The notes beneath the pieces were generated by a model. The model was not told where the DNA came from and searched no databases. It saw only the letters and a program-made list of their open reading frames with translations. This document shows positions 26,382 through 61,991 of a stretch of DNA of 64,000 bases, in pieces. The stretch is from Natrarchaeobius oligotrophus (GTDB lineage Archaea > Halobacteriota > Halobacteria > Halobacteriales > Natrialbaceae). The stretch spans positions 248,001-312,000 of the forward strand of contig NZ_REFZ01000002.1 of assembly GCF_003841465.1 (NCBI RefSeq). The letters run 5' to 3'. Both the position numbers and the translations under genes were made by a program. The stretch's first letter is position 1. The number at the start of each line of letters is the position of its first letter.

Positions 26382-26792
26382 ATGTACGAACGAATTCTCG
26401 TTCCGACGGACGGACGCGAGAACACGGAGCGTGCGATCGACGAAGCCATCGATCTCGCGGGCGAGCACGACGCGACGTTGCACACGCTGTACGTCATCAA
26501 CTCGGCCGCGATCGCGCCGGGAATCGACTTCGACGACCTCGAGGAGATCGGTCAGCAGGCGGTCGACTACGTCGCCAATCGCGCCCGCGAGAACGGCGTC
26601 GAGGACGTCGAGCGGAACGTGATCCACGGCCTTCGCCACAGAGCGATCCTGCAGTACGCGGACGAACACGACATCGATCTGGTCGTACTCGGTCGGCGAC
26701 AGAAACTCGACCACCTCCTCCGCGGGAGCGTCTCGGAGCGGGTGTCCTCGGAAGCAACGATACCGGTCCTCATCGTCGATCAGGACGGCTGA
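26382..26792 (+). CDS. Universal stress protein, single UspA domain, degenerate nucleotide motif
   Basis: A 136-residue UspA protein starting MYERILVPTDG. The C-terminal ATP loop, normally G-2x-G-9x-G-S/T, reads GRRQKLDHLLRGSV here, so the second glycine is Gln; the first and last glycines remain. ATP binding may therefore be weakened. A TATA-like GGGATTTATTGATG at about 26348-26361 lies some 25-30 bp upstream, giving an almost leaderless mRNA. It follows the DUF389 gene. Confidence 0.9.
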   Translation: MYERILVPTDGRENTERAIDEAIDLAGEHDATLHTLYVINSAAIAPGIDFDDLEEIGQQAVDYVANRARENGVEDVERNVIHGLRHRAILQYADEHDIDLVVLGRRQKLDHLLRGSVSERVSSEATIPVLIVDQDG

Positions 26793-26952
26793 TACCGCCT
26801 GCTGTAACAGTTACCGGTGTGTCCCCGACAAACCACACGACACGTCGGAACAGGCGGACGGCAGTCCGTCCGAGACGTCGCAGGTCGGCGTGATCGAAGC
26901 GCCATCGCCGGCTCCGAGTTCGTCCGATCGGACGCTCGCCGCAGTTCGATCG

Positions 26953-27402
26953 TCACTCGTCCGATCGCGCCATCTCGGCGAGTTCGTCGTCCGAAGCGAT
27001 TACGTCGAGTCCGCGCAGGAGACGGAGGCGATTCGTGATCCACCACGATTCGGCGATCGCTCCGTTCTCGAGGCGGTGAAACGCCATTCCGTCGTACGTC
27101 ACTTCGTTCCCCGTCGGGGGAATGCCCATGAACTCGCCTTCGTGCGTGCCGGTGATCATCCAGTGCTGGGAGACGAACTCGCCGTCGCCGGTCGCGTGTA
27201 ACAGGCCCATCGAGTAGTCCGGAAACGCCCGACGAAAGCCGGATTCGGCCTCGAGGATCTCCGAGATTCCGGAGTACGTCGATCCGAGTCCTTCCGGACC
27301 CCAGTGATCGACGGCATCCGGACGGTAGATCTCCCGGAGCTCGTCCGTGTCGTTTTCGTCCCACGCGTCGACCAGTCGGCGAACGATCTCTTCGTTGGCC
27401 AT
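26953..27402 (-). CDS. SnoaL-like/NTF2-fold polyketide cyclase-type protein
   Basis: A 149-residue small a+b barrel protein. The opening IVRRLVDAWDENDTDELREIYRPDAVDHW and the later GTHEGEFMGIPPTGNEVTYDGMAFHRLENGAIAESWW pattern are typical of SnoaL-like ester cyclases. Many such proteins have no known reaction. It was started at the ATG giving MANEEIVRR. The TATA box CATAAATC (27426-27433) lies about 25 bp from that ATG, so the mRNA should be leaderless, with a perfect palindrome between the two. Confidence 0.85.
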   Translation of the reverse strand: MANEEIVRRLVDAWDENDTDELREIYRPDAVDHWGPEGLGSTYSGISEILEAESGFRRAFPDYSMGLLHATGDGEFVSQHWMITGTHEGEFMGIPPTGNEVTYDGMAFHRLENGAIAESWWITNRLRLLRGLDVIASDDELAEMARSDE

Positions 27403-27412
27403 ATTAATGGTA

Positions 27413-27424
27413 TGTGCTAGCACA
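27413..27424. promoter_or_regulatory. 12-bp palindromic operator candidate
   Basis: TGTGCTAGCACA is a perfect palindrome located between the TATA box (27426-27433, minus-strand GATTTATG) and the start codon (27402) of the SnoaL-like gene. A repressor bound there would block transcription initiation, so this is a strong operator candidate. No gene for a cognate regulator is adjacent. Confidence 0.55.
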
Positions 27425-27598
27425 GCATAAATCGGGCAGGTCGCTCGAGGCGGTTTCCATCGCAATCACGCCCGCCGGTGTGCTCGGTCTGCGGTCCACG
27501 TGGGGAAGGCGGCGAACGGTCCTTCGAGTCGATCCGAACGGGCGACTCGGTGATTCACCACCACCCTCATATAGCGCGGCGGTCTACCCGACTGCGAA

Positions 27599-28813
27599 AT
27601 GTCTCGCCGTTCGCGGTACATCTACTACCTGGGAGTGCTGTTCGTCCTGTTCGCGGGCGGTCAGTCGTTCGTCAAAGTCGCCACGGACGGCCCGATGCTC
27701 GAGGCGGCGATCGACTTCGGTCTGATCGGACTGCCGGGACTGTTACTGATGTACGTCGGCCGGTGGATCGCGGGGACGGAACTGGAGCCGGAGCTGTACC
27801 CGCGCATCGTTCTGTGGTGTCTCGGCGGCATCGGCGTCATGTTCGTTTTTATCGTTCTGCGAGCGATTCACCCCGGCGTCGAAACGCCGTTTTCGTTCGG
27901 TACGAGAGCCATCGCGCTGTTCATCGGATCGATCGCGGGGCTCGGCATCGGCGTTCACGAGGCTCGGGCGCTCGCGCGCGAACGAGAGCTCAACCAGCGA
28001 AACGACGCGCTAAAACGAACGCAGCAGGCGCTCGAGCGACGGAATCGAGAACTCGATCGAACGCGAGCGGACTTGCAGGAGACGAACGCGCGGTTGAAAG
28101 AGTCGAACGAGCAACTCGAGCAGTTCGCATACGCCGCCTCCCACGATCTCCGGGAGCCGCTTCGAATGATCTCGCGGTATCTGGAACTGCTCGAGGATCG
28201 CCACGCGGATTCGCTCGACGACGACGCGAGGGAGTTCGTCGCGTTCGCGGTCGACGGAGCGGCGCGGATGAAAGGAACGATCGACGGACTGTTGCAGTAC
28301 TCGCGGATCGAAACGCGGGGTGCGTCGTTCGAGTCGGTCGATCTCGAGGCGGTACTGGAGTCCGTGCGCACCGATCTGCAGGTGAAAATCGACGAGACGA
28401 ACGCGGAGATCTCCGTCGACGAACTGCCGCGCGTTACGGGCGACGAGAGCCAGCTCCGCCAGCTGTTTCAGAATCTGCTCGGGAACGCGCTCGAGTACGC
28501 CGGGGACGGTCCGCCCCGCGTTCGAATCTGGGCCGAGCGAGGCGACGACGAGCACGTGATCTCGGTCGCGGACGACGGGATCGGAATCGAATGCGAGGAT
28601 CGAGACCGCATCTTCGAGATGTTTTGCCGGCTCCACTCCGTCGACGAACAGTCGGGCTCGGGGATCGGTCTGGCGGTTTGCCGGCGGATCGTCGAGCGAC
28701 ACGGCGGCAGCATCAGGGTCGACTCCGAACCGGACGAAGGATCGACGTTCTCGGTTGCGCTTCCCTCCAGCGACCCTCGTTCCGTCCCGACGGCGAGCAG
28801 GTCCAACGGGTGA
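27599..28813 (+). CDS. Membrane sensor histidine kinase
   Basis: A 404-residue kinase. Four hydrophobic segments fill roughly residues 5-117, then a coiled coil (about 118-170). The phosphoacceptor is His182 in the ASHDLREPL motif. The ATPase domain has the N box (LFQNLLGNALEYA, near residue 290), the G1 box (VADDGIGIE) and the G2 region (GSGIGLAVCRRIVERHGG). It should phosphorylate a response regulator, but no receiver protein gene is in the window. There is no separate extracellular sensor domain, so the signal may be sensed in the membrane. Downstream lies a gap with IS-like remnants. Confidence 0.92.
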   Translation: MSRRSRYIYYLGVLFVLFAGGQSFVKVATDGPMLEAAIDFGLIGLPGLLLMYVGRWIAGTELEPELYPRIVLWCLGGIGVMFVFIVLRAIHPGVETPFSFGTRAIALFIGSIAGLGIGVHEARALARERELNQRNDALKRTQQALERRNRELDRTRADLQETNARLKESNEQLEQFAYAASHDLREPLRMISRYLELLEDRHADSLDDDAREFVAFAVDGAARMKGTIDGLLQYSRIETRGASFESVDLEAVLESVRTDLQVKIDETNAEISVDELPRVTGDESQLRQLFQNLLGNALEYAGDGPPRVRIWAERGDDEHVISVADDGIGIECEDRDRIFEMFCRLHSVDEQSGSGIGLAVCRRIVERHGGSIRVDSEPDEGSTFSVALPSSDPRSVPTASRSNG

Positions 28814-29861: not shown

Positions 29862-30332
29862 TCAGCGTTCGTCGACCGACGCGGACGACGCCACGGAATC
29901 GGCGTTCCGACCGACGACGAGGACGTCGACAGTGCCGTACCGCGTCACCCCTTCGGTGACGCTCCCGAGCATCGCGCGGCCGAGTCCGCTTCGACCTTTC
30001 GACCCCATGACGATAGCGTCGGCGGCGATTTCGTCCGCGCACTCGAGGATCTCCTCTACCGGAACGCCGCGACGAATTTCGGTTTCGACCTCGAGGCCGC
30101 GGTCTCCGGCGCGTTCGGCGATCCGGGAGACGAACTCGGTGGCCCGATCTTCGAACACCTCGGCCGCGCTCGCGCCGTCGCCCGGGAGCGAAATCGTACC
30201 GAGCGGTCCCGACTCGACGACGCAAACGACGTGTACCGCCGCGTCGAGTTCCGTCGCCAGCTCGAGCGCGGTGTCGGCGGCGTCGTCGGCGAATTCGCTT
30301 CCGTCCGTCGGAACGAGTATCCGGTCGTACAT
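29862..30332 (-). CDS. Universal stress protein, single UspA domain
   Basis: A 156-residue UspA protein starting MYDRILVPTDGSEFADDAA. The ATP-binding loop is canonical (GSKGRSGLGRAMLGSV), so ATP binding is expected. The C-terminal 15 residues after LVVGRN are extra. A minus-strand TATA box (TTTTATAG, plus strand about 30354-30361) lies some 25 bp upstream of the ATG. It is divergent from the next histidine kinase. Confidence 0.93.
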   Translation of the reverse strand: MYDRILVPTDGSEFADDAADTALELATELDAAVHVVCVVESGPLGTISLPGDGASAAEVFEDRATEFVSRIAERAGDRGLEVETEIRRGVPVEEILECADEIAADAIVMGSKGRSGLGRAMLGSVTEGVTRYGTVDVLVVGRNADSVASSASVDER

Positions 30333-30492: not shown

Positions 30493-32034
30493 GTGAGTGG
30501 GGAGATTATGGGGGCGTTCCGGACGGAGAGGCGCGCAGCGGCGGTCATCGGAGGAATCGGACTCGCACTCGCGCTCGTTCACGCGCTCCACGTCGTCGGT
30601 CACGACAAGCCGCCGCTCGCGACCCTCGTCGGCGGGGTCTTTCCGCTCGTGCTGTCGCTCGTGATCGTCTACGCCGGCTACTGGACCGCACGAAGCGAAT
30701 CGAACCGGGCGTACGTCGACCGACTGGTGCAGTGGACGGCCCTCGGCGGGGTCGGAATGGGCGCGCTCGTCGGAACGATCGCGATTCACCAGTATCTAAG
30801 CGGGCACCTTCCCGAAGACGCCGCCTTCCAGCTCGCTACCGCCGCCACCGGGGGCGCACTCGGCGGATTTCTCATCGGCGTCTACGACGCCCGGATGCGA
30901 CGACGATCGGATCGAATCCGGTCGTTGCAACGAGCGACGGGCGAGTTCGTCGTGGCGGAGACGAAACGGGACGTCTGCGAACAGGTCGTCCAGTTCGCCG
31001 CGTCGGAACTGGACATGCCGCTCACGGGCGCGTGGCTATACGACGAGACGACGGACGCACTCGAGCCGGTCGCGATCACCGACGAAGGACGAGATACGTT
31101 CGACGATTCGCCGACGTATGAGGGCGGAGACAGTCTCACCTGGGACGCGTTCGAAAGCGGCGACGTTCGGGTGTACGCCGACGTTCGCGATCACCCGAAC
31201 CGATACAACCCGGAGACGATCGTTGGAAGCGAGATCGTCGTGTCGCTTGGCTCACACGGCGTTCTCAACATCGGCTCGAGGGAGACCGACGCGTTCGACG
31301 ACGTCGACGTGTCGACGGCCGAGTTGCTCGCGTCCGCGACGAGCGCCGTCCTCGATCGAACGGAGCGCGAAGCGCAGTTGCGAGCGAAACGGGAGGCGCT
31401 CGAAACGCAGAACGAGCGCCTCGACGAGTTCGCGAGCATCGTCTCCCACGACCTTCGCAATCCGCTGACGATCGCGCAGGGGAATCTCGAGCTCGCGGCC
31501 GAGGAGTGCAACAGCAACGCGCTCGAGGAGATCGAACTCGCTCATCGACGGATGGAGACGCTGATCACGGACCTGTTACAGCTCGCACGCGCCGGAAAGA
31601 CGATCGACGAGACCGATCGTGTGAGTCTACAGTCGGCGGCGACGAGAGCGTGGCAGATGGTCGCCGCCGACGAGGCGACGCTCGCGATCGAGCCGTCGTC
31701 CGTCGAACTCGAAGCCGACGAGCGGCGGCTCAATCAGCTCCTCGAGAACGTCTTTCGAAACGCGATCGATCACGGGGGACCCGCGGTGACCGTCCGGGTG
31801 ACGGCGCTCGAGGGCGAAGCGGGATTCGCCGTCGAAGACGACGGGCCGGGAATCCCCCCCGCAGATCGCGATCGGGTGTTCGATTCGGGATACACGACCC
31901 GCGAGAACGGAACGGGGCTGGGACTCGTGACGGTCCAGCGAATCGCGGAGGCCCACGGGTGGTCCGTGGACGTGACCGACGGAGAAGACGGCGGGGCGCG
32001 GTTCGAGATCAGGACGTCACCGTCCGCCGACTGA
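30493..32034 (+). CDS. Membrane sensor histidine kinase with GAF domain
   Basis: A 513-residue kinase. Four membrane helices cover about residues 11-130. A GAF-type sensor domain (about 148-290) has FVVAETKRDVCEQVVQ and ends in VSTAELLASATSAVLDRTERE. The HisKA domain contains the phosphoacceptor His319 in IVSHDLRNPLT; the ATPase domain has NQLLENVFRNAIDHGG, FAVEDDGPGIPP and GTGLGLVTVQRIAEAHG. The first start codon is GTG at 30493; an ATG at 30508 (MGAFRTERR) is an alternative. GAF domains can bind heme, flavin or small molecules, and the ligand is unknown here. It may be the regulator of nearby stress genes, but no receiver gene is seen. Confidence 0.92.
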   Translation: MSGEIMGAFRTERRAAAVIGGIGLALALVHALHVVGHDKPPLATLVGGVFPLVLSLVIVYAGYWTARSESNRAYVDRLVQWTALGGVGMGALVGTIAIHQYLSGHLPEDAAFQLATAATGGALGGFLIGVYDARMRRRSDRIRSLQRATGEFVVAETKRDVCEQVVQFAASELDMPLTGAWLYDETTDALEPVAITDEGRDTFDDSPTYEGGDSLTWDAFESGDVRVYADVRDHPNRYNPETIVGSEIVVSLGSHGVLNIGSRETDAFDDVDVSTAELLASATSAVLDRTEREAQLRAKREALETQNERLDEFASIVSHDLRNPLTIAQGNLELAAEECNSNALEEIELAHRRMETLITDLLQLARAGKTIDETDRVSLQSAATRAWQMVAADEATLAIEPSSVELEADERRLNQLLENVFRNAIDHGGPAVTVRVTALEGEAGFAVEDDGPGIPPADRDRVFDSGYTTRENGTGLGLVTVQRIAEAHGWSVDVTDGEDGGARFEIRTSPSAD

Positions 32035-32211: not shown

Positions 32212-33090
32212 TTACGAGAGCGGAAGTAACCGACGGAGTCGGGACGGGACGGGATCGTGACGCCTGGCCAGGACGACCGTCCCGGCCGCGTGTCTCCCGA
32301 CCGCCTCCGAGATCGTTCCGAGCAACGCGCGCTGGAGGAGACCGCCTCGAGACACGCCGAGGAGGGTCACGTCGTGGTCGGTCGTCCAGTCGGTTATCGT
32401 TCCGGCGACGTCGTCGTCGGAGACGAGTTCCCGGTCGACCGACTGGACCTCCTCGAACTCGGCCGCAGCCGCCCCGAGCACGGTTCGAGCCTGCTCCCGT
32501 GAGCGCTCCGACTCGTCCGACTCGAGGACGTGTAACAGCGTCACCGCGGCGTCGTTCCGGCGGGCGATCGAGGCAGCGGTTTCGACGGCGTACTCGTCGT
32601 GCGGACCGCCCGCGACCGGAACGAGCACCGACTCGACGCTCGGCGTCGGCGTCTTGATTCGCTTGACGAGGACGTCGCACTCGGCGTTTCGGAGCACCCT
32701 GTCGATGTGGCTCCCGAGGACCACGTTCGATCGCGGCGGCCTGCCCCGCCAGCCCAGCAGGATCGCGTCGACATCGTACTCGGCGGCGGCGCCGACGATT
32801 CCGGTCGCGACGCCGCGGGCTATCCGGATTCGACGCCGAACCGGGATTCCGGCGGACTCGACGCGTTCCGCGGCCGTCTCGAGCAGTCGTTCGTCCTCGT
32901 CCTCGAGCAGATATCGACGCCCGTCCTGTAACGAAAGCTGGGACGGAACCTCGAGGACGAACACGAGGAGAACGTCGTGGGACCGGTCCGTCGCGACGTC
33001 GATCGCCGTGTCCAGCTGGCGATCCGCCGTCTCCTCGTTCGCGATCGGAACCAACAGCGTGCCGTCGGCCGTCGGCGACTCCTCACTCAT
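32212..33090 (-). CDS. Tandem universal stress protein (two UspA domains)
   Basis: A 292-residue protein with two UspA domains of about 140 residues. The first ATP loop is near canonical (GWRGRPPRSNVVLGS); the second reads GVSRGGLLQRALLGT, where the second glycine is Arg. Domain 1 starts TLLVPIANEE, lacking the usual DGS; domain 2 starts VLVPVAGGPHDEYA. The start is the ATG giving MSEESPTADG. On the minus strand an AT-rich ATAATAAT (about 33116-33124) lies 26-34 bp upstream. It is the most divergent of the tandem stress proteins in this window. Confidence 0.88.
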   Translation of the reverse strand: MSEESPTADGTLLVPIANEETADRQLDTAIDVATDRSHDVLLVFVLEVPSQLSLQDGRRYLLEDEDERLLETAAERVESAGIPVRRRIRIARGVATGIVGAAAEYDVDAILLGWRGRPPRSNVVLGSHIDRVLRNAECDVLVKRIKTPTPSVESVLVPVAGGPHDEYAVETAASIARRNDAAVTLLHVLESDESERSREQARTVLGAAAAEFEEVQSVDRELVSDDDVAGTITDWTTDHDVTLLGVSRGGLLQRALLGTISEAVGRHAAGTVVLARRHDPVPSRLRRLLPLS

Positions 33091-33198: not shown

Positions 33199-34398
33199 TC
33201 ATTCGCTCAGCCACCAGCCGTACATTTTCGCGACGACGTCCTCGCCCGACGGCATCCGGGCCCGTTCGGACGTCTTGCCCTCGAGAATCTGGCGTTCGAT
33301 GGCGTTCAGCGCGAGCGAGAACGCGTGGCGATCGCCGTAGCCCTCGTCGGACGCGACGAAGGTCCCCTTGTCCGTGTAGAGGCGAATCCGCGCGTGGATC
33401 TGGGCCACCCCGCGGAGTCGCTCCTTGTGCTCCTGGAAGTGGACCTTCGCCTCGAGGACGCGCATCGCGCCGTACTTGCGCGAGACGGCCTCGATGCGTT
33501 CCGAGAGTTCCTCGCGGGTCGTATCCGACATCAACTCGGCTCCGAACACCTGCACGGGAAGCCGGCGTTCCTCCGACCAGGTTAGCGACTCGAGGAGGTC
33601 GGTTTTCGTGACGATCCCGGCGAGCGAGCCGTCGTCGAGCAGAATCGAGGACGACGCGTCGAACTCGAGCATCGACTCGAGCACCTCTTCCAGCGATTCG
33701 TCGGGCGTCGTCGTACCGACGGCTTCGACCATGACGTTTCGAACCGGCAGCGCGAGCAGGTCGTCGCGTTCGCCCTCTCGAGCGCCGCGTCCGCCGTGGT
33801 GGCCGCCTTTGCTCGCGTCCATGTGCTCCGGTGAATCGCCACCCTGTGAGCGCTGAAGTTCGCGCGTGACGAACGAGAGGACGTCGGCGAGGCTCACGAT
33901 CCCGACGACGTCGTCGCCGGAGACGACGGGGAGGTGTTCGATGCGCTCGGTCCTGAACGTCGAAAGTGCCTTCCCGAGCGAGGTGTCGGGTTCGACCGAG
34001 ACCACGTCGGTCGTGGCGACGTCCGACGCGTCGAGGACGGCGAGGTACGGCTGAACGCTTCGGAGGAGCGCTTCCGTCCGGACGACGCCCACGAGGTCGT
34101 CGCCCTGGAGGACCGGCAGGAGCCTCGTATCGCTCGCGATCATGAGACGGGCGGCTTCGCGAACGTCTTCGTGCGGACCGATGGTCGGGACCGACCGAAC
34201 CAGTGATCGAGCCTTTCGCGTCGTCTTCTCGTGGGACGAGAGCACCTCCTTTCGGGTGACGATTCCCACGAACTCGCCGTCTCGCTCGATCACGAGCGCC
34301 TTGCGATTCGAATCTTCGAACGCGCCGCGGAGTTTCGATACGCGCGTCGTCTCGTCGTACGTCTCGAACTCCCGGTCGACGATATCGGTGACGTCCAT
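33199..34398 (-). CDS. Four-CBS-domain protein fused to an HPF/S30EA-like ribosome hibernation domain
   Basis: A 399-residue protein. Four CBS domains can be marked by their hydrophobic repeats: ALVIERDGEFVGIVTRKEVL (near residues 34-53), LLPVLQGDDLVGVVRTEAL, HLPVVSGDDVVGIVSLADVL and SILLDDGSLAGIVTKTDLL (near 253-270), with a Gly/His linker (GGHHGGRG) before the last one. From about residue 285 the chain changes to a b-a-b-b-b-a layout: AVSRKYGAMRVLEAKVHFQEH, IHARIRLYTDKGTF and DRHAFSLALNAIERQILEGK. That matches the ribosome hibernation promoting factor/sigma-54 modulation family. CBS domains bind adenosine nucleotides, so energy-dependent ribosome silencing is a fair inference. It sits among stress protein genes. 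Confidence 0.85.
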   Translation of the reverse strand: MDVTDIVDREFETYDETTRVSKLRGAFEDSNRKALVIERDGEFVGIVTRKEVLSSHEKTTRKARSLVRSVPTIGPHEDVREAARLMIASDTRLLPVLQGDDLVGVVRTEALLRSVQPYLAVLDASDVATTDVVSVEPDTSLGKALSTFRTERIEHLPVVSGDDVVGIVSLADVLSFVTRELQRSQGGDSPEHMDASKGGHHGGRGAREGERDDLLALPVRNVMVEAVGTTTPDESLEEVLESMLEFDASSSILLDDGSLAGIVTKTDLLESLTWSEERRLPVQVFGAELMSDTTREELSERIEAVSRKYGAMRVLEAKVHFQEHKERLRGVAQIHARIRLYTDKGTFVASDEGYGDRHAFSLALNAIERQILEGKTSERARMPSGEDVVAKMYGWWLSE

Positions 34399-34612: not shown

Positions 34613-35932
34613 TCAATAGACGTACTCGTCGGCGAGTTCTCGCGGGGAGATCGGCTCGAGGTCGCCGGCGTCCCGGTGTTCTGCGATCCGTTCGGCCGTC
34701 GCCTCGAGGGCCTCGGCGTCGTCTTCGTCCATCTCGTAGAAGACGATCGTCGTGATGCCGCCGCGTGCTGCCGTCCAGTCGACCGCGTCGATCATCTCCT
34801 CGGCGTCGAGGTTGCGCTGGTCGACGTGGCCCGAGATGCGCGTGATGGTGAGGTGGTTGCTCGCCCAGCCCTGCGATCGGTGGCGGTCCGCGAAGCCGAG
34901 GTCGTAGTGTTCGTCGATCAGGTCGTACGTCCGCCGATCGAACCGACCGCCGGGGAACGCGAAGTACCGCGCGTCGTCGTAGCCGCGCTCGTCGAACCAC
35001 TCGAGCGGATCCAGCACGTGGGATTCGGCGGCGTCCGCGTCGACCTCGTGGAGGTGCTGTCCCCGCACGCCGACGGTCCCGACCGACCAGCCGGCGTCGA
35101 CGAGTTCCGACAGTTGCCCTTCCGTCAGGTGATCGCCGTCCGTCTCCGCGCTTTCGCGGATCCTGGCGGTCGGAACGAACGTCGCTCCCGGCAGATCGTA
35201 CTCCTCGAGGATCGGATACCCCATCGTGTAATCCGTCTCGAATCCGCGCTGGAACTGGATCATCACCCGGCCGTCCTCGACGCGGGGGACGAAGTGCAGG
35301 TCGTCGACCCACAGTTCCTCCTCGGTCTCGTCGTCGACCAGCGAGACGATCTGGATCTCGGTGATCGCACTCGGATCGGGATCGCCCGAGACGGACGTGT
35401 GTCCGAAGTTGCGTCGCATGAACGGTTGTCCTCGAGTGACGTGCTGTTGAAACTGGAGAATGTCGCCGTCTTCGTCGTGGAGCTGGATGATCGGGCTCGC
35501 CGCACTGTCGCACGAAAGCGCCAGCCCCGGAACGACCCCCTGGACGTCGATCGGCTCCGAGAGTTCCCGGACGATCCTGACCTGCTCTTCGGACTCGGTC
35601 GTCGTCAGGAGCGCCGACTGCGACCCCTCGTAGGCGAACTCGTCGTCGGCCTCGAGCGACCCGAGTCGGGCCTCCCACGCGTCGAGGTCCTCGAAATCGT
35701 CGAAGGTACCGAGCAGATCCGACGGTTCGTCGTCTTCTTCGTCTTCCTCCTCGTCTTCGTCGTCGGTTTCGTGATCGTCGTCGATTTGGTCGTCGTCGGA
35801 GTGGGCGTCGTCGGAATCACCGTCGTCCTCGTCGACGGTATCGCCGTCCTCTTCGGGGTTGCCACCTGCGCAACCGGCGATCGCGGTCGTCACGGCCGCG
35901 GACGCGGCCGTGAGGTAGATACGTCGTTTCAT
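34613..35932 (-). CDS. Polysaccharide deacetylase-like lipoprotein
   Basis: A 439-residue exported protein. The N-terminus has a signal helix and lipobox (IAGCAGG), then a very acidic Asp/Glu-rich linker (about residues 26-75). A b-sandwich-like middle region follows (about 76-225), then a NodB-like region (about 226-400) with FQRGFETDY, TEGQLSELVDAGWSVGTVG, and FAFPGGRFDRRTYD. The usual NodB metal motifs (FDDG and HSxxHP) are not intact: the first reads FETDY and the second histidine motif is replaced by VGTVGVRGQH. The enzyme may be inactive or use other ligands. It faces the cell surface and could act on exopolysaccharide or glycans. No partner gene is nearby. Confidence 0.75.
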   Translation of the reverse strand: MKRRIYLTAASAAVTTAIAGCAGGNPEEDGDTVDEDDGDSDDAHSDDDQIDDDHETDDEDEEEDEEDDEPSDLLGTFDDFEDLDAWEARLGSLEADDEFAYEGSQSALLTTTESEEQVRIVRELSEPIDVQGVVPGLALSCDSAASPIIQLHDEDGDILQFQQHVTRGQPFMRRNFGHTSVSGDPDPSAITEIQIVSLVDDETEEELWVDDLHFVPRVEDGRVMIQFQRGFETDYTMGYPILEEYDLPGATFVPTARIRESAETDGDHLTEGQLSELVDAGWSVGTVGVRGQHLHEVDADAAESHVLDPLEWFDERGYDDARYFAFPGGRFDRRTYDLIDEHYDLGFADRHRSQGWASNHLTITRISGHVDQRNLDAEEMIDAVDWTAARGGITTIVFYEMDEDDAEALEATAERIAEHRDAGDLEPISPRELADEYVY

Positions 35933-36706: not shown

Positions 36707-36901
36707 TTACGGCTCCGACGTCTCCTCGTCGGCCGGTCGAACGGCCCACACGACGAGTGCCGTGATAGCCACGACGCCGACGAGAGCGATCTCGAGCACC
36801 GACACCTCGACGTCGAAGAACGCGAGAATCGTTCGCGCCTCGACGAGGACGACGAGACAAAGCGCGATTACGATGAGTAGTTTGGCGGGGGAGATGCGCA
36901 T
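36707..36901 (-). CDS. Small two-helix membrane protein of the ba3 oxidase operon
   Basis: A 64-residue protein starting MRISPAKLLIVIALC. It has two hydrophobic helices (about residues 7-27 and 34-54) and an acidic tail. Its ATG overlaps the stop codon of the oxidase subunit I gene by one base (TGATG), which implies coupled translation and a role as an oxidase subunit or assembly factor. Confidence 0.75.
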   Translation of the reverse strand: MRISPAKLLIVIALCLVVLVEARTILAFFDVEVSVLEIALVGVVAITALVVWAVRPADEETSEP

Positions 36902-38655
36902 CAGGTGATCAACACTCCGACGTATGCAACTCCGTGCTGGAGGTACATGACGCCGTCGACGACGACGGGGAACGGTCCGACGTCGGGACCGAAGAGCCCG
37001 CCGCGATCCACGATGCTCGCGAGCGGAATCGCGTACGCGATGACGACCAGGACGAGGGCGATGCCGATCCACACGCGAAGATCGTCGAGGACGCGCGGGG
37101 AGTCCTCGGGACCGGAGAGCGCCGGCGGGATCGTTCCGTCGACGAGGGGATCGCTGTCGGTGTTGAACGCCGTCAGGAGGATGATCGCGAGAAACAGGAC
37201 CGTCGAGACGAACAACAGGACGCCGCCGAGAGCGAGCTGGACGTCGAGTTCGGTCATCGATCCGACGCCGACCTCGTAATCGAAGGCGTACTGCGGCTCC
37301 GCGGATCGTCGCGGGACGCCGATGAGACCGGCCCGGTACATCGAGTTCGTCATGAAGACGATTCCGACGAACCAGAGGACGACCTGGAACAGTGCGATCT
37401 GTCGGCCGACGAGCCGGTTTCCGGTCAACTGTGGAACGAGCCAGTAGGAGCCGGCCATGAACGTCAACGCGACGGCGGTCCCGACCTGGGTGTGGATGTG
37501 ACCGGGCACCCACAGCGAGTTGTGCACCAGGTAGTTGATGTTCATCCCGGCGTTGACGATGCCGGTGAAGCCCCCGAAGGCGAACACGAGTCCGGCGAGG
37601 GCCATTCCCGTAAACGCCGGGTCCTTCCAGGGAAGCGCTCGGAGCCAGTTGAGCGTTCCCGTGCCTCCCCGCTGACGGGCACCGTGTTCCATGCTAGCTA
37701 CCACGGTGAACGCCGTCAGGAGGCTCGGTAACAGGAGGAACATCGTGTTCGTCATCGCGATGAACTTGAACCCCTCGGAGATGCCCGGATCGAGATACTG
37801 GTGGTGGATACCGACCGGAGTCGAGAGCAACACGAACAGGATAAAGACGACCCTGGCGAGCGGGTCGCTGAACAGGCGTCCGCCGGAGAGTTTCGGGAGA
37901 ACGATGTACCACAGGAGGTACGCCGGCAGCAACCAGAAGTAGACGACGGGGTGGCCGAAGTACCAGAACAGCGTTCGCGTCAGCGTCGGGTTGAGGCTGT
38001 CGATCAGTCCGAGCGACCACGGCAGGATGAACGCGAGAATCGCGACCGCGACCCCGATCGAGGAGATGTACCACATGATCATAGTCGTCAACACCATGAA
38101 CGTCGGCAGCGGGATTCGCTCGCCGGGATGGTCGCGCTTCCAGGCCCACCAGGTCCGGAACCAGTCGGCGCCCGCGAGCCACGTACCGACGACAAACAGT
38201 ACGAGACCGGCGTAAAAGATCGGATTCGCTTGTAACGGCGCGTAGAACGTAAAGAGGACGTCCGCACTCAGTTCGGAACCGAGTACGTCAGGGGGATCGT
38301 CGAGAAATCCCGCGAGTATCGCGATCGCTGCGATCAGCGTTCCGACCGACATCAGTCCGTACCACGACCACGTAAGCCGCGCGTCTACCGGCCCCCGCTG
38401 TAAGCTGTCCGTTACCGCCCACTGATAGAGACCGACGAGGAAAAATATCGTGAACGTGATGACGAGAAAGACGCCGTGGCCGGTCAGGACGGTGTAGTAC
38501 GTCGTCGACTCGACGATTCGGAACACGCCGGTCCGGTGGAGCGCCTGGATGACGCCGAAGAGCGCGCCGATCCCGAGCGCGACGAACGACGTCAAAAATG
38601 CGGCCCGAACGAGTCGCGCCTGTTCGGGATACTCGTCGACGAACAGGTCAGTCAC
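36901..38655 (-). CDS. cbaA: Cytochrome ba3-type terminal oxidase subunit I
   Basis: A 584-residue heme-copper oxidase subunit I of the B (ba3) family, with about 13 membrane helices. The low-spin heme histidine lies in GHGVFLVITF; the CuB ligand and its cross-linked tyrosine are in GHPVVYFWLLPAY (about residues 230-242); further CuB ligands are the pair in HHQYLDP (about 283-284); the high-spin heme and second low-spin heme histidines are in GHIHTQVG (about 383-385). No E from an A-type channel (e.g. GHPEVY) is present, which separates it from aa3 oxidases. It reduces oxygen with high affinity. The start overlaps the subunit II stop by 4 bp. Confidence 0.94.
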   Translation of the reverse strand: MTDLFVDEYPEQARLVRAAFLTSFVALGIGALFGVIQALHRTGVFRIVESTTYYTVLTGHGVFLVITFTIFFLVGLYQWAVTDSLQRGPVDARLTWSWYGLMSVGTLIAAIAILAGFLDDPPDVLGSELSADVLFTFYAPLQANPIFYAGLVLFVVGTWLAGADWFRTWWAWKRDHPGERIPLPTFMVLTTMIMWYISSIGVAVAILAFILPWSLGLIDSLNPTLTRTLFWYFGHPVVYFWLLPAYLLWYIVLPKLSGGRLFSDPLARVVFILFVLLSTPVGIHHQYLDPGISEGFKFIAMTNTMFLLLPSLLTAFTVVASMEHGARQRGGTGTLNWLRALPWKDPAFTGMALAGLVFAFGGFTGIVNAGMNINYLVHNSLWVPGHIHTQVGTAVALTFMAGSYWLVPQLTGNRLVGRQIALFQVVLWFVGIVFMTNSMYRAGLIGVPRRSAEPQYAFDYEVGVGSMTELDVQLALGGVLLFVSTVLFLAIILLTAFNTDSDPLVDGTIPPALSGPEDSPRVLDDLRVWIGIALVLVVIAYAIPLASIVDRGGLFGPDVGPFPVVVDGVMYLQHGVAYVGVLIT

Positions 38656-39443: not shown

Positions 39444-39604
39444 AGCAGAACAGTCGGTGTAGGGGCGTTTCCGACGAACTCGACGAAGTAGGTGAACAAC
39501 CACATCAGCGTGAGAACCACGAAGTACAGCGCGATGAGCGCGAGCGTTCCGATCGGATCGAACTCGTCGTGACTGATCTCGGTCGAGATCCCCGAATCGT
39601 CCAT
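39440..39604 (-). CDS. 54-residue ba3 oxidase small subunit (CbaD-like)
   Basis: A 54-residue protein beginning MDDSGISTEISHDEFD, with one membrane helix (about residues 21-43, LALIALYFVVLTLMWLFTYF) and a short proline-rich end. It is the first gene of the ba3 operon, coupled to subunit II by a 4-bp ATGA overlap. The pattern of an acidic N-terminus followed by a single helix matches the tiny subunit IIa/CbaD type of ba3 oxidases. A TATA box 27 bp upstream of its ATG supports this start as the 5' end of a leaderless transcript. Confidence 0.8.
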   Translation of the reverse strand: MDDSGISTEISHDEFDPIGTLALIALYFVVLTLMWLFTYFVEFVGNAPTPTVLL

Positions 39605-39630
39605 GTCGCGTGGGTAACGACGATCGGTAG

Positions 39631-51144: not shown

Positions 51145-53078
51145 GGTGATGGTCCCCGCTCGATCCGTTCGCACGACCAGGCCCGATCGGCCCACGGCGT
51201 CTCCGCGAGCAGGTCCGGTTCGTTCGGCTCGCACGTCGGCGCGAGGTCGACGACGCTGCCGGTCCGCATCCCCGGAACGGTGCCCTGGAGTCCGGAGATC
51301 GCATCCAGCGCCGGCGAACGGGCCAGCGTCTCCGCACCGTCGGTTCGGTGGAGCTGCCGGTCGACCGGTGCCGTCGGCGAGTACGGACCGTCGACAGTCC
51401 GGTCGCCGGTGATGCTGCTCGCCCCCTGCCAGTAGTTACCCGTGCCGTCGTGGGTCCAGACGCGAAGCGGTCCGGTCCCAGCGTCGGCGTGAACGTCGTT
51501 CTCGACGAAGTCGTTCTCGAGAACCTGGTTCGTCGGCAACATCGCGCGAACCTGGGCACCGATCTCGTTGCCGGCGACGACGTTGCCTTCGTAACGCGAT
51601 CCCGTCGCGTCGATCCGGAGGCCGACCCGGTTGTCGACGAGGAGATTGTCCGCGACGTACGAGTCGCTGCCGTCGGGAAAGAGCCCGTACTCCGCCCCGC
51701 GGATCTCGTTGTCCACGATCGCGTTGCGCTCGGGACCGGTCATGACGTAAATCCCCGTGCTCGACTGATTCTCGAGGCGGTTGCTCGCGAGCAACGCGTC
51801 GGACGTGTGCATCAGGTGGACGCCGAGTCGGTTCCCCTCGAGCGTCGAGTTGCGGACGACAAGCCCCGTCGAACGGTGGGAGTAGACCCCGTCTCTGCCG
51901 TCGGAGATCGTCGCGTTTTCGACGACGGTCGGCGAGTGAAACGCGAGAACGCCGGCGTGTCCGTCCTCCCAGCGCTCGGGGCTGTCGACGGTAACGTCGC
52001 GGACGACGGAGTTCTCGCTTCGACGGAGGACGACACCGGTGACCTCCGAGTCGACCGAGACGTCCTCGATCAGCGATTCGTTCGCCGTGTGCAGGCCGAT
52101 CGCGGCGTCGCTGCCGGCGTAGTTCCGCTCGAAGGTGTCGTCCCACTCGCCGTCGTGTTCGTCGCCGGGAAGTTCGCCATCGCCCTGTCGCTGCGACCCC
52201 GAACCGGCGACGGCGAGGCCGACGGCGGCGGTTCGATTCGCCGTCGCGGTGATCACCGTCCCGTTCCCGTCGCCCCGAATCGTGGCGTCGTCCTCGCCGC
52301 GTAGCGTGATCGACCGGTCGACCTCGAGCGTCTCGTTGTACGTTCCCTCGGGAACGAGCACGGTCGTGTTCTCGGGTGCGCTGTCGATCGCCTCCTGTAC
52401 CGTGGCGGCGTCTTCGCCGACGACCGTCGAGACCGGCCGATCGGCCAGCGCGGAGACGGCCTCGATCCGTTCGTCGGCGTTCTGATGCTGCTGATCGACG
52501 CGATCGCGAACGACGGTCGCATCGTCCATCTCGACGTCCCGATCCAGGAGTTGCTCCCACGCGACGACCGACCCGCCGTGGGAGTCGACGAACGCCGTCG
52601 CGTCGTCGCGGTCCGCAAAGGGGACGATCGTCTGCCCGCTCGGCGTCGTCGCCTCGCTCCCGACCGCGAACCACGCGGATTCTGCGTCGGTCCACGCCGG
52701 CTCCCGATCGGCCGTCGGGTGACCGTCGGCCGACAGTTCGACGTCGACGCTCGAGTAATCGCTCACGTAGACGGTTCGCGGGTGGCCGAACCGGTCCGTG
52801 TGGCCGGCCTCCCGAAACGAGGCGACGAACATCTCGACGCCGTAGTAGCCGACGACGTACTCGTACTGTGAGTAAAACACCTGCGCTCTCGGGAGCCGAA
52901 CGTCGTCCTCGAGTCCGTACTCGTCTTCGAGCGCGAGCCCCATCGACACGGTGTCGTCGAAAAGCACCGGATCGGGATCTGCCGTCCCGCCGTCGACGAC
53001 GAAGACGCCGACGGCGACGACGGCGATCGCGACGAGTATCGCGACGACGAGCAGACGGATTCGCTGGCGCTCGATCAC
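51141..53078 (-). CDS. nosD: NosD-like b-helix protein with an N-terminal NosL-like domain (fusion)
   Basis: A 645-residue protein. A signal/anchor helix covers about residues 8-28. Residues about 35-195 resemble the second half of NosL: MFVASFREAGHTDRFGHP, TVYVSDYSSVDVEL, GSEATTPSGQTIVPFADRDD and ATAFVDSHGGSVV. The cysteine metal motif of NosL is absent from this part. From about residue 215 the NosD repeat region begins (VQEAIDSAPENTTVLVPEG) with many N/G-rich rungs, and ends with the NYWQG motif. The extra domain makes it about 180 residues longer than the operon NosD. It probably binds copper or docks with NosL during cofactor assembly. Confidence 0.88.
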   Translation of the reverse strand: MIERQRIRLLVVAILVAIAVVAVGVFVVDGGTADPDPVLFDDTVSMGLALEDEYGLEDDVRLPRAQVFYSQYEYVVGYYGVEMFVASFREAGHTDRFGHPRTVYVSDYSSVDVELSADGHPTADREPAWTDAESAWFAVGSEATTPSGQTIVPFADRDDATAFVDSHGGSVVAWEQLLDRDVEMDDATVVRDRVDQQHQNADERIEAVSALADRPVSTVVGEDAATVQEAIDSAPENTTVLVPEGTYNETLEVDRSITLRGEDDATIRGDGNGTVITATANRTAAVGLAVAGSGSQRQGDGELPGDEHDGEWDDTFERNYAGSDAAIGLHTANESLIEDVSVDSEVTGVVLRRSENSVVRDVTVDSPERWEDGHAGVLAFHSPTVVENATISDGRDGVYSHRSTGLVVRNSTLEGNRLGVHLMHTSDALLASNRLENQSSTGIYVMTGPERNAIVDNEIRGAEYGLFPDGSDSYVADNLLVDNRVGLRIDATGSRYEGNVVAGNEIGAQVRAMLPTNQVLENDFVENDVHADAGTGPLRVWTHDGTGNYWQGASSITGDRTVDGPYSPTAPVDRQLHRTDGAETLARSPALDAISGLQGTVPGMRTGSVVDLAPTCEPNEPDLLAETPWADRAWSCERIERGPSP

Positions 53079-53171: not shown

Positions 53172-53618
53172 ATGTACGACACCATCCTCGTGCCGACGGA
53201 CGGCTCAGAGAAGTCGAACGGCGCGCTCGAGCACGCGATCGACCTGGCGTCGACCTACGACGCGACGTTGCACGCCCAGTACGTCGTCGAGTCCTCGCCC
53301 GCGTTCTCGGCCGAGCTGGACCCGGAAACCGAAGACGAGATCTACGGCTCGCTGTTCGAGGCCGGCCGCCGGGCGGTCGAAGACGTCGCCGCTCGCGCCG
53401 ACGACGACGACGGCGTGACGGACGTCGAAACCGCCGTCGAACGTGGCCGGCCCCACGAGGAGATCCTCGCGCACGTCGACGACGCCGACGTCGATCTCGT
53501 CGTGATGGCAACCGCCGGCAGAACGGGAGCGTCCCGCGAACTGATAGGCAGCGTCGCGGAGCGGGTCGTCCGATCGTCGCCGGTCCCGGTTCTCACCGTG
53601 AACGCGGACGGCGAGTAG
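53172..53618 (+). CDS. Universal stress protein, single UspA domain, first Gly of loop missing
   Basis: A 148-residue UspA protein beginning MYDTILVPTDGSEKSNGALEHAI. Its nucleotide loop reads ATAGRTGASRELIGSV, so the first glycine of the G-2x-G frame is Ala. ATP binding may be lost or altered. The gene is divergent from the NosD-like fusion and precedes another UspA gene by 95 bp. Confidence 0.92.
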   Translation: MYDTILVPTDGSEKSNGALEHAIDLASTYDATLHAQYVVESSPAFSAELDPETEDEIYGSLFEAGRRAVEDVAARADDDDGVTDVETAVERGRPHEEILAHVDDADVDLVVMATAGRTGASRELIGSVAERVVRSSPVPVLTVNADGE

Positions 53619-53713: not shown

Positions 53714-54166
53714 ATGTACGAACGGATCCTCTTGCCGACCGACATGAGCCCCGGCGTCGACGACGCCATCGATCACGCGGTCGACGCCGCACGGCGGTAC
53801 GACGCGACGCTACACGTTCTGTACGTCGTCGACGCGGAAGCCTACAGCTCCTACCCCGGCGACGAGTACGTCCACGAGTTCGAGGGGTTAGAGAACGCGC
53901 TCGAGCAGGCGGGTCGCGACGCCGTCGACGAGATCGCACGGCGGGCCGACGAGGCGGGCGTCGAGACGGAGACGGTCGTCAGACACGGCGTGCCACACGA
54001 GGAGATCCTCGTCTACATGGACGAAGCCGGCGTCGACCTGACGGTCGTCGGCTCGAAAAACCGATCGGGCGAGTACCGCCGCCTGCTCGGGAGCGTGGCC
54101 GAGCGCGTCGCGAACATGGCCGAGCGACCGGTGACGATCGTGAAAACTCCGATCGACGGGGAGTGA
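53714..54166 (+). CDS. Universal stress protein, single UspA domain, second Gly of loop missing
   Basis: A 150-residue UspA protein beginning MYERILLPTDMSPGVDDAI. The DGS loop near the N-terminus reads TDMSPG, and the ATP loop is GSKNRSGEYRRLLGSV, in which the second glycine is Asn. Two nucleotide contacts are therefore altered. A Tyr/Ser-rich stretch (AYSSYPGDEYVHEF) marks the middle. It follows the preceding stress protein gene in the same direction. Confidence 0.92.
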   Translation: MYERILLPTDMSPGVDDAIDHAVDAARRYDATLHVLYVVDAEAYSSYPGDEYVHEFEGLENALEQAGRDAVDEIARRADEAGVETETVVRHGVPHEEILVYMDEAGVDLTVVGSKNRSGEYRRLLGSVAERVANMAERPVTIVKTPIDGE

Positions 54167-54735: not shown

Positions 54736-54752
54736 GCGTCGGCGTCCGAGCC

Positions 54753-55631
54753 TCACCTGACGGTGAGGACGGGAACCGGAGAGCGGCGGACGACCTGCGC
54801 CGTCGTGCTGCCGAGCAGGCGACTCGAGTCGAGCGTTCGTCCTCGCGTACCCATCGCGACGAGGTCCGCGTCCGCGGCCGACGTGGCGGCGAGAACCTCC
54901 GCCGCCGGCGCGCCGCGGCGGAGTTCGGTCGTCGCCGAGAGGTCGCGCTCTCGAGCCGTCGCGGCGACCTCCTCGGTGGCCTTTTGCCCGCCCTCCCGGA
55001 GCAGCCCGATGACGCTACGCGGTGCGTCCTCGAGATCGTAGACCGTGGCGTCCACAACGTAGACGACGTGAACGTCCGATCCGTACGTTTCCGCGAGCTC
55101 GAGAGCGGTTTCGGCGGCGCGTTCGGCGACGTCGCTCCCGTCGGTCGGGACGACGACGGTGTCGTACCCGTCCGATGGCGGCGACGGTTCCGCGCCGTCG
55201 TCCGCCAGTCGAATCGAGAGAACGGGGACGTCCGCCCGGCCGAGGACCCGTTCGGTCGTGCTGCCGAGGCGGGCGCGATCGACGCCGGTTCGGCCGTGGG
55301 TTCCCATGAGAATCAGGTCGACGCCCTGCTCGTCCGCGTAGTCGAGGATCTCCCGGTACGGAACGCCGTCGCGGACTTCGCGGGCTGCGCCCAGCTCCTC
55401 CTCCTCGAGCCGGTTCGCGATCCGGATCGTCGCCTCCCGCCCGCGTCGTTCCGAGGGGGCCGAGAGCGCGTCGCGCTGATCCGGATCCAGCCCGCCGGGA
55501 ATCGATCCCGAGTCGACGACGAAAAGGGCGTGCACGTCGGCCCCGTACGTTCGGGCTATCTCCGTCGCGTGAGCGAGTACCGCCTCGGAACCGGCGCTCC
55601 CGTCGGTCGGAACGAGTACGTCGTGGAACAT
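54753..55631 (-). CDS. Tandem universal stress protein (two UspA domains)
   Basis: A 292-residue protein with two UspA domains. Loops: GTHGRTGVDRARLGST in domain 1 and GTRGRTLDSSRLLGST in domain 2, both with intact glycines. Domain 1 begins MFHDVLVPTDGSAGSEAVL, domain 2 DTVVVPTDGSDVAERAAE. The ATG giving MFHDVLVPTD was chosen. Unlike the tandem proteins at 40.6 and 44.4 kb, both halves keep the VPTDGS wording, so it belongs to a different tandem subgroup. Confidence 0.93.
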   Translation of the reverse strand: MFHDVLVPTDGSAGSEAVLAHATEIARTYGADVHALFVVDSGSIPGGLDPDQRDALSAPSERRGREATIRIANRLEEEELGAAREVRDGVPYREILDYADEQGVDLILMGTHGRTGVDRARLGSTTERVLGRADVPVLSIRLADDGAEPSPPSDGYDTVVVPTDGSDVAERAAETALELAETYGSDVHVVYVVDATVYDLEDAPRSVIGLLREGGQKATEEVAATARERDLSATTELRRGAPAAEVLAATSAADADLVAMGTRGRTLDSSRLLGSTTAQVVRRSPVPVLTVR

Positions 55632-60057: not shown

Positions 60058-60483
60058 ATGAGCGAACGAATTCTCGTTCCGTACGACGGATCGGCGCCGT
60101 CGGAGAAGGCCCTCGAGTACGCCTTCGACACGTTTCCGGAGGGGGACGTGACGGCGCTGTACGTGATTCCGGCCCCCGAAGGCTACCGAGCGGTCTTCGA
60201 GGACGCAGAAGACAGGATTCCGGCCGCCGACGAGGCCCACGACCAGGGACGGACGATCCTCGACGAGGCGGGATCGATCGCGACCGAGCGCGGACGCGCG
60301 CTCGAGACGGAGATCGTCACCGGCAAACCGGAGCGGGCGATCGTCGAACTGGCGGAAGAAGAGGCGTTCGAGACGATCGTCATCGGCAGCCACGGCCGGG
60401 AAGGGGTCTCGCGGGTGCTGCTGGGCAGCGTCGCGGAGTCGGTCGTCCGCCGCTCGCCGATCCCCGTCTTCGTGGTCAGGTGA
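60058..60483 (+). CDS. Universal stress protein, single UspA domain
   Basis: A 141-residue UspA protein beginning MSERILVPYDGSAPSEKALEYAF, with canonical loop GSHGREGVSRVLLGSV. The ATG at 60058 opens at the conserved strand; an alternative ATG at 60031 has a good AAGGAG ribosome-binding site four bases upstream, and the ten added residues would be unusual. It ends 3 bp before the next stress gene, so both are on one mRNA. Confidence 0.93.
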   Translation: MSERILVPYDGSAPSEKALEYAFDTFPEGDVTALYVIPAPEGYRAVFEDAEDRIPAADEAHDQGRTILDEAGSIATERGRALETEIVTGKPERAIVELAEEEAFETIVIGSHGREGVSRVLLGSVAESVVRRSPIPVFVVR

Positions 60484-60486
60484 ACG

Positions 60487-60936
60487 GTGCCGACCGACCA
60501 CGCAGACGCGATCCTGGTGGCGACCGACGGCAGCGACGCGTCGACCGCGGCGCTCGAGCGAGCGCTCGCCGTGGCGGAGCGCACCGGCGCGGTCGTCCAC
60601 CTCCTCGCCGTCGCGGACACCGCCGGCTCGCCGATGACGTTCGGCGTCGACGACGTCGAGGAGCTCGAACTGGCGAAACGGCGTCTCGTCGACGGCGTCG
60701 TCGAGACGATCGACGATCGAGACGTCGACGTCAGCGGTGTCGTACGACGAGGCGCTCCGGCGCGCGAGATCGTTCGGTACGCCGACGAAACCGACGTCGA
60801 CGCGATCGTCCTCGGACGAACCGGACGCGCGGGCGCGGCTGGCGCGATGCTCGGAAGCACGGCGGATCGCGTCCTCCGACGGACGGGGATCCCCGTGCTG
60901 GTCGTTCCCGACGCACCGGAAGACGGCGGTTCGTGA
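60487..60936 (+). CDS. Universal stress protein, single UspA domain (GTG start)
   Basis: A 149-residue UspA protein with a GTG start (MPTDHADAILVATDGSDAS). The loop GRTGRAGAAGAMLGST keeps the glycine frame. It lies 3 bp after the previous stress gene, so translation is coupled. No ATG is available near the domain start. Confidence 0.9.
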   Translation: MPTDHADAILVATDGSDASTAALERALAVAERTGAVVHLLAVADTAGSPMTFGVDDVEELELAKRRLVDGVVETIDDRDVDVSGVVRRGAPAREIVRYADETDVDAIVLGRTGRAGAAGAMLGSTADRVLRRTGIPVLVVPDAPEDGGS

Positions 60937-61084
60937 GAGAACGCGCACGCTCCGACCGGCCTCGAACCGCGCGCGCCGAACTCGGCGGACGTCGGCGGGG
61001 TGACGGTGGCCGGGGAGCGGCGACGGCGATCGCGTCCGCGAGCGGGGACAAAGTCAGTATCCCTCGTCACGAATGGACGGTCGA

Positions 61085-61510
61085 ATGCCCAGTTCGATCC
61101 TGGTCGCCCACGACGGCTCGTCCCACGCACAGTCGGCCCTGAAATACGCCCTCGAGACGTTTCCGGACGCGCGAATCGTGCTCTTTCACGCGATCGATCC
61201 GTTCGAAACGTCCCCGGGAGAGGACCGGCTGTCGTCGCTGACCGAGGAGTGGCTCCAGCGAGAGCGCGAAGCGGCCGAGGAGCTGTTCGAGGGGGCGCTC
61301 GCGGAACTCGACGTCGAACCGGATACGGTCGATACCGACACCGCCGTCGGGTCGCCGGCCCAGACGATCGTCGCCGCCGTCGAACGAACGGACGCGGACC
61401 AGATCGTCGTCGGCAGCCGCGGGCGCGGGGGCGTCGGCGAGTCGCACGTCGGAAGTACGGCCGAACTCGTCGTCAAACGCGCCAGCGTCCCCGTGACCGT
61501 CGTCCGCTGA
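61085..61510 (+). CDS. Universal stress protein, single UspA domain
   Basis: A 141-residue UspA protein starting MPSSILVAHDGSSHAQSALKYAL. The first loop reads AHDGS rather than VPTDGS, and the ATP loop is GSRGRGGVGESHVGST, with the glycine frame intact. It lies 148 bp after the previous stress gene on the same strand. An upstream in-frame ATG four codons earlier (MDGRMPSS) is possible. Confidence 0.92.
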   Translation: MPSSILVAHDGSSHAQSALKYALETFPDARIVLFHAIDPFETSPGEDRLSSLTEEWLQREREAAEELFEGALAELDVEPDTVDTDTAVGSPAQTIVAAVERTDADQIVVGSRGRGGVGESHVGSTAELVVKRASVPVTVVR

Positions 61511-61529
61511 GGTCCGAGCGAACGTGCGA

Positions 61530-61991
61530 TCAGTGAACGGATTCGTCGCGAACGACGGTTACGCTTACGGGAGAGCGCCGCACGACGGTCTCGGCGACGC
61601 TTCCCAGGAGGATTCGGGTCGGGCCCGTCCGACCGTGGCTGCCCATGACGATCCGATCGACGTTGTGTTCCTCGGCGGCGGCGACGATTTCGCGAGCCGG
61701 ATCGCCCGTCGAGTGATCGGTGATCAGCTCCGCGTCGTACTCGTCCGTCCGCTCGCGCGCTTTCTCGAAGAGTCGGTCCTCCTCGGCGTCGGCGCGCTCG
61801 TACCACTCCTCCGAGCCGCGAGGAGGTTCGGTACGGACGTCGACCGAGGTCGCCGAGCTGTACCCCGGATCCGTCGGATCGAGGACGTGGAGGGCGACGA
61901 TCGTGACGTCGTCGTACTCCTCGAGGACGAACTCGAGGGCGCGCAGTGACAGCGGCGAGCCGTCGATCGGAACGAGTATTCGCTTGGTCAT
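61530..61991 (-). CDS. Universal stress protein, single UspA domain
   Basis: A 153-residue UspA protein beginning MTKRILVPIDGSPLSLRALEFVL, with canonical loop GSHGRTGPTRILLGSV. It converges on the preceding stress gene, with 19 bp between stops. On the minus strand an AGTATTTA element at 62018-62025 lies about 27-34 bp upstream of the ATG, consistent with a leaderless transcript. Confidence 0.93.
   Translation of the reverse strand: MTKRILVPIDGSPLSLRALEFVLEEYDDVTIVALHVLDPTDPGYSSATSVDVRTEPPRGSEEWYERADAEEDRLFEKARERTDEYDAELITDHSTGDPAREIVAAAEEHNVDRIVMGSHGRTGPTRILLGSVAETVVRRSPVSVTVVRDESVH

Follow-up and report, generated by a model that had tools for sequence, protein, structure and literature searches.

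In the haloarchaeon Natrarchaeobius oligotrophus, fifteen genes for Usp proteins are crowded into positions 26382-61991 (contig C2:274382-309991) of a window of 64,000 nucleotides from contig NZ_REFZ01000002.1, together with genes for a HibA-type protein (CBS domains fused to a hibernation-factor domain, HPF), a DUF2267 protein, a ba3 oxidase and copper-assembly proteins. We regard it as reasonably probable that this stretch is a recurring energy-stress and ribosome-hibernation island of the Natrialbaceae, to which respiration genes are attached in this genome. Gene content compared among relatives points to a conserved layer consisting of the Usp genes, the CBS-HPF gene (a HibA paralogue) and a cassette of a double-domain Usp gene, a methyltransferase gene and a DUF2267 gene. 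The ba3 oxidase, Sco, the second nosDFYL set and nosZ appear to form a variable layer, mostly passengers of the island.

The Usp cluster and its HibA paralogue

A search with PF00582 found 19 Usp domains in the 15 genes, four of which are double-domain, exactly the count given in an earlier note on this DNA; the two sensor kinases, CBS-HPF, DUF2267, ba3, Sco and cupredoxin genes that it listed are also all present. The island domains score 51-124 bits, the curated cut-off of the family being 24. With 93 PF00582 matches in the whole genome of 4.61 Mb, the chance expectation is about 0.7 Usp domains per 35.6 kb (Poisson P = 8e-21 for 19), and when 78 Usp genes, our estimate of their number in the genome, were scattered at random in 2000 trials, no 36 kb received more than 7. 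One further Usp domain is located directly beyond the window end (C2:312459).

The nearest relative of each of the 19 domains was found outside the window, and for 18 of them in another genome, paralogues within the window being weaker matches. Recent local duplication was thereby ruled out as the origin of the cluster, no domain having its best match inside the window. The Usp set therefore seems to have been assembled and kept rather than recently copied on the spot, and we read it as old, different paralogues held together, not as a fresh tandem expansion. In a motif scan of the 19 domains, the strict ATP motif G-2x-G-9x-G(S/T) was detected in 13 domains and 12 of the 15 genes, and was not found in Usp 1, 9 and 10. 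A link between UspA and a transporter is already known from haloarchaea (PMC3102087).

Archaeal ribosome hibernation has only recently been described. HibA of P. abyssi is found on ribosomes and inhibits translation; its best ligand is AMP (Kd 12 uM), and its ribosome binding was unchanged by AMP in vitro (PMC13324472). HVO_2384, a relative of HibA in Haloferax, was recovered together with a Pat2 acetyltransferase variant on purification (PMC12607858). The island protein shares the HibA architecture, in which a CBS module is fused to a C-terminal HPF/RaiA domain, and is homologous over its full length to two PDB chains, 9l96_a (E 2e-99, residues 1-397 aligned) and P. abyssi HibA 9sr9_H (E 1e-32, residues 5-379 aligned, HPF part included). 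It stands apart from the family as a paralogue located in Usp islands. The genome has three HibA paralogues (C8:13918-15132, C21:28377-29474 and 33199-34398 of the window), of which one is the housekeeping copy and two are in Usp islands. The housekeeping copy, to which the island paralogue is 41% identical, has no Usp neighbours.

This division is seen across the family. We compared 80 Natrialbaceae genomes, taking a single gene as the anchor and counting the Usp domains of the surrounding region of about 20 kb, many of the compared loci stopping at contig ends. Orthologues of the window-type HibA (66-78%) have a median of 7.5 Usp domains per 20 kb and up to 11 (n=12), whereas the housekeeping HibA (36-41%), present in nearly every genome, has a median of 0 and a maximum of 1 (n=20; Mann-Whitney p 5e-6). 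A second paralogue class (about 46%) has a median of 2 and up to 16. We thus consider the island CBS-HPF protein a putative stress-dedicated HibA paralogue. A stress-specific HibA inside Usp clusters, with the housekeeping HibA outside them, would tie Usp proteins to hibernation and offers a direct genetic test.

Island content across the Natrialbaceae

The DUF2267 gene behaves as a hub of Usp islands. Its orthologues (78-87%) have a median of 6 Usp per 20 kb, with Usp present at 19 of 20 loci, and at least two Usp lie within 2.5 kb for 20 of 23 orthologues. The order double-Usp, methyltransferase, DUF2267 is identical to that of the window in several genera. A single-sequence AlphaFold model of the DUF2267 protein was poor (pLDDT 50), and we found no paper in the literature that names a Usp/DUF2267 island. 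Usp genes, a HibA-type factor and DUF2267 are co-located in many genera of the family. The comparison of gene order that the earlier note had proposed thus brought these three together, but found the respiratory genes scattered in relatives, where they meet the Usp sets more than once.

For a survey of content, the genes of 36 island loci and of the window, called by a simple composition score, were clustered and then searched with Pfam. The recurring families are DUF2267, HibA, a PNPOx-like flavoprotein, a type-IIA P-type ATPase, sulfatase, NAPRTase and DUF7344, and further ABC1 kinase, PAC2, the trehalose synthase TreT, nucleoside phosphorylase and ADP-phosphofructokinase; NAPRTase, ADP-phosphofructokinase, trehalose synthase and the PNPOx protein occur in relatives' islands only sometimes. 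Since the islands themselves had supplied the families, the enrichment p-values of this survey are circular, and two families, the P-type ATPase and NAPRTase, were examined again, each as an independent anchor. The ATPase had at least two Usp at 14 of 16 new loci (p 2e-6). NAPRTase was ruled out as a constant island gene, several Usp being found at just 6 of its 16 new loci.

Two more Usp islands are present in the same genome (C8:9-29 kb and C31:3-22 kb), both without oxidase or nos genes. The former also holds a HibA paralogue (46%), two DUF2267 genes, a DUF389 gene and the same methyltransferase. A small extra set at C2:171-191 kb (L197) combines two Usp genes with TreT, ADP-phosphofructokinase, nucleoside phosphorylase and the P-type ATPase.

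The respiratory genes of the window are genuine. CuA residues of the form C-x3-C/H/M are visible in CbaB, and the oxidase has the features of the B family (ba3-type). N2O reduction does adjoin the island, as had been claimed: nosZ with its own nosDFYL set, the make-up of a nos cluster, is found at 18.1-24.7 kb, outside 26382-61991. The "second copper-assembly set" is present and is more exactly a second nosDFY with nosL, its NosD carrying a NosL domain, while the gene labelled "TauE/SafE" exists but matches DsbD_2 (PF13386) instead. Of 81 family genomes, 51 have the NosL-NosD fusion with NosF, NosY and NosL, and 31 of these 51 lack NosZ; the set probably helps to assemble the copper centre of another enzyme, perhaps an oxidase.

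Among relatives, these genes mostly stand apart from Usp sets. Close ba3 orthologues (78-87%) have 0-2 Usp within 10 kb, NosL-NosD2 loci a median of 0 and a maximum of 2, and the flanks of NosZ, at eight loci, 0 at five and 1, 1 and 6 at the others. Low-oxygen respiration, which the earlier note had made part of the island, was thus not supported as an island trait. Oxidase or copper genes nevertheless lie in or beside Usp sets at L156, L180, L203 and L125/L159. At L180, in a different genus, DUF2267, methyltransferase, double-Usp, cupredoxin, CbaB and CbaA are arranged as in the window, and L203 unites CbaAB, NosDFY, a P-type ATPase and Usp. Genome G063 of the same genus (L155-L157) has CbaA, a DsbD/Sco/NosL/NosDFY set, seven Usp hits and a HibA paralogue within about 28 kb, and L125/L159 bring together Usp, a HibA paralogue and NosD2/Sco.

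Features of the island and its left flank (positions in the window)
Feature	Position	Strand	Evidence and remarks
First nos set: nosL, nosY, nosF, nosD and linked ORF (21995-22750)	18113..22750	-	NosL, ABC2_membrane_2, ABC_tran, NosD
nosZ, clade I (TAT) nitrous oxide reductase	22774..24669	-	TIGR04244 707 bits, cut-off 625; nos_propeller domains
DUF389 membrane protein	25108..26319 (start approximate)	+	PF04087; also in a few Usp islands (L082, L083, L102)
Usp 1	26382..26792	+	PF00582, single domain; without ATP motif (motif scan)
Histidine kinase with 4TM region	27599..28813	+	HisKA_4TM, HisKA, HATPase_c
Usp 2	29862..30332	-	PF00582; strict ATP motif
Histidine kinase, 4TM and GAF	30493..32034	+	Pfam
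Usp 3	32212..33090	-	PF00582 twice, double domain
HibA-type CBS-HPF protein, hibernation factor paralogue	33199..34398	-	four CBS domains (Pfam); PDB chain matches
Polysaccharide deacetylase-like protein	34613..35932	-	PF01522
ba3 oxidase subunit I (CbaA)	36901..38655	-	PF00115; Thermus ba3 1EHK E 2e-112
ba3 oxidase subunit II (CbaB), CuA-type cupredoxin	38652..39503	-	COX2; sequence VCNEYCGPGHHDM
Halocyanin-like cupredoxin	39904..40431	-	no Pfam/NCBIfam match; beside CbaB in L180 likewise
Usp 4	40568..41443	+	PF00582, double domain; member of conserved cassette
SAM methyltransferase of cassette	41539..42261	-	Methyltransf_25/11; order conserved
DUF2267 protein	42286..42684	-	PF10025; hub of Usp islands
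Usp 5	43743..44183	+	PF00582
Usp 6	44361..45221	+	PF00582 twice, double domain
Usp 7	45371..45781	+	PF00582
Usp 8	45886..46305	+	PF00582; 86% to L181, 82% to own C8 island
Possible DUF7344 protein, candidate DNA-binding regulator	46559..46909	-	PF24035 E 1e-4, 22.7 bits, below 27.8 cut-off
DsbD_2-type membrane protein	47066..47920	-	PF13386
Sco/SenC copper chaperone	47923..48612	-	PF02630
NosL 2	48718..49323	+	PF05573
NosY2, NosF2, NosL-NosD2 fusion	49532..53078	-	Pfam/NCBIfam; fusion at 51141-53078
Usp 9	53172..53618	+	PF00582; 88% in L156
Usp 10	53714..54166	+	PF00582; 93% in L156
Usp 11	54753..55631	-	PF00582 twice, double domain
Usp 12	60058..60483	+	PF00582
Usp 13	60487..60936	+	PF00582
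Usp 14	61073..61510	+	PF00582
Usp 15	61530..61991	-	PF00582

Two further loci of the window were noted. A histone deacetylase-like gene (PF00850) at 58600-59792 (+) is broken into three pieces by a frameshift (near 59025) and a stop codon in frame (near 59317), and is either a pseudogene or the product of an assembly error. A locus likely to be for purine or amide degradation is found left of the nos genes (3109-17385), with genes for a xanthine dehydrogenase-type molybdoenzyme, XdhC/CoxI, an amidohydrolase, M20 peptidase-type hydrolases and a large MCP transducer. A scan of the window detected no tRNA and no Rfam family.

Mechanism, regulation and rival explanations

The analysis shows the content of the island, its clustering, its recurrence and its homology to HibA. 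In the mechanism that we infer, together with its inducing signal and the action of the Usp proteins, a fall in ATP and a rise in AMP would be reported by the ATP-binding Usp proteins and by the adenylate-binding CBS module of HibA, which would then park ribosomes via its HPF domain. Islands of other genomes might add a cation P-type ATPase, NAD salvage, an ADP-dependent sugar kinase and trehalose genes to this response. Because the ba3 oxidase, cupredoxin, Sco and copper set lie inside the island and N2O reduction adjoins it, terminal respiration at low oxygen may be co-expressed here.

Both histidine kinases are seldom near Usp islands of relatives, and no response regulator was found among the Pfam-scanned island genes, kinases and kinase neighbours. 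The DUF7344 family, to which a candidate regulator of the window may belong, occurs in 9 of 38 islands vs 1 of 113 controls. An upstream motif common to all fifteen Usp genes, for which the earlier note had suggested a search, did not rise above shuffled sequences in a Gibbs search of the 15 promoters, either at width 10 (score 162 vs 157 +/- 6.5) or at width 16 (190 vs 184 +/- 6.2). The element TTAT-N13-GAA is enriched in front of some of the island Usp genes in different genera; the form TTA-N14-GAA was counted in 24 of 164 Usp and 6 of 401 other promoters (p about 4e-9, not corrected for the 270,000 patterns). It precedes three of the 15 window genes (promoters of 26382, 40568 and 44361) and is found in the islands L179, L183, L191, L125, L189 and L127 of relatives. 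We treat it as a lead only, because of this small share and because related promoters were counted repeatedly. Usp 7 and Usp 8 (45371 and 45886) have very similar promoters with a common inverted repeat, GTATCA ... TGATAC, around the TATA region, which was noticed in that pair only.

Several observations weigh against an energy-stress and hibernation island. The absence of a common promoter motif is one, and we know of no molecular role for Usp proteins in general. The HibA paralogue of about 46% is near Usp genes in part of the genomes only, and no 20-kb locus of a relative was found to contain both the window-type HibA and the DUF2267 cassette. Island layout differs between genomes, and the loci, coming from related genomes, are not independent samples.

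The variable composition could also mean that the region is a neutral gathering place, where numerous Usp genes pile up without any joint function. The 93 Usp domains of the genome, the many passenger genes of the islands (sulfatase, glycosyltransferases, SDR) and a strand and order unlike an operon fit such an origin. However, specific paralogues recur, namely the window-type and not the housekeeping HibA, DUF2267 orthologues and one class of P-type ATPase, and the cassette keeps its order across genera, so that we consider mere accumulation quite improbable. A true low-oxygen regulon, in which the whole 36 kb and the nos genes would be governed by an oxygen or redox sensor in the manner of DosR, through the local kinases, seems to us unlikely, though a shade less so. 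It would account for the presence of ba3, cupredoxin, Sco, nosDFYL and nosZ in the island or next to it, for the return of oxidase and copper genes at the four sets of loci named above, and for the link of the bacterial parallels DosR, OsdR and lxa with hypoxia. The sparsity of Usp genes beside ba3, nosZ and nosD2 in most relatives speaks against it, as do the non-recurrent kinases, their neighbourhood free of detectable response regulators, and the missing common motif.

It is somewhat doubtful, too, that two separate things have merely become neighbours, a copper-respiration locus (ba3, cupredoxin, Sco, DsbD, NosL, NosDFY2) that would serve to assemble copper centres and an unrelated Usp stress set. 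The NosL-NosD2 sets lacking NosZ, mostly found without Usp genes, would suit this explanation, but at least four other genomes, G063 included, have oxidase and/or copper-assembly genes within or close to their Usp sets. We prefer the recurring energy-stress and hibernation island with attached respiration genes. That it is, beyond this, a dormancy island of the Natrialbaceae convergent with the bacterial DosR/lxa sets, in which the stress HibA, the Usp set and DUF2267 are co-expressed when energy or oxygen is short and oxidase and copper genes were recruited repeatedly, is a tentative extension that we put at about a one-in-three guess, short of a probable one.

Likeness to bacterial dormancy and hypoxia gene sets

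The DosR (DevR) regulon of M. tuberculosis combines many Usp proteins with the HPF-type factor Rv0079/RafH and the CBS protein Rv2626c, in agreement with the earlier note, and it includes respiratory narX/narK2 as the island includes respiration genes (PMC4082495, PMC5309233). Its ctpF, Rv0573c (nicotinamide salvage) and pfkB have function-level counterparts in relatives' islands (PMC4082495, PMC5309233). However, DosR is spread over nine scattered blocks under one response regulator, whereas the island is one place; in the island HPF is fused to CBS, and the island-type phosphofructokinase belongs to the ADP-dependent family. The scanned window genes yielded no DosR/DosS homologue, the Pfam scans no response regulator and the Gibbs search no shared operator. 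The idea of a haloarchaeal DosR counterpart therefore survives as a likeness of content and not as one of regulator or descent, because the ba3 and nos genes are scattered, 31 of 51 nosD2 genomes have no NosZ, the kinases do not recur and a common motif was not found.

Two further bacterial systems resemble the island. The OsdR region of S. coelicolor (SCO0167-SCO0219) holds 8 of the 11 USP genes of its genome with a nitrate reductase set (PMC5069765), but its regulators are a neighbouring OsdK/OsdR pair, for which the binding site is known. The lxa locus of B. cenocepacia is contiguous like the island, with six USPs, a phosphofructokinase and a cytochrome, and is absent from some strains, as the haloarchaeal islands likewise vary between genomes; it differs in content and regulator, and its induction by low oxygen has been reported (PMC6127331, PMC3759415). 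With these systems the island shares dense Usp genes, a ribosome factor, CBS domains and respiration genes, the last of which are not conserved among its relatives. Should low energy or oxygen prove to induce the island, it would represent an archaeal analogue of the mycobacterial dormancy sets, reached independently.

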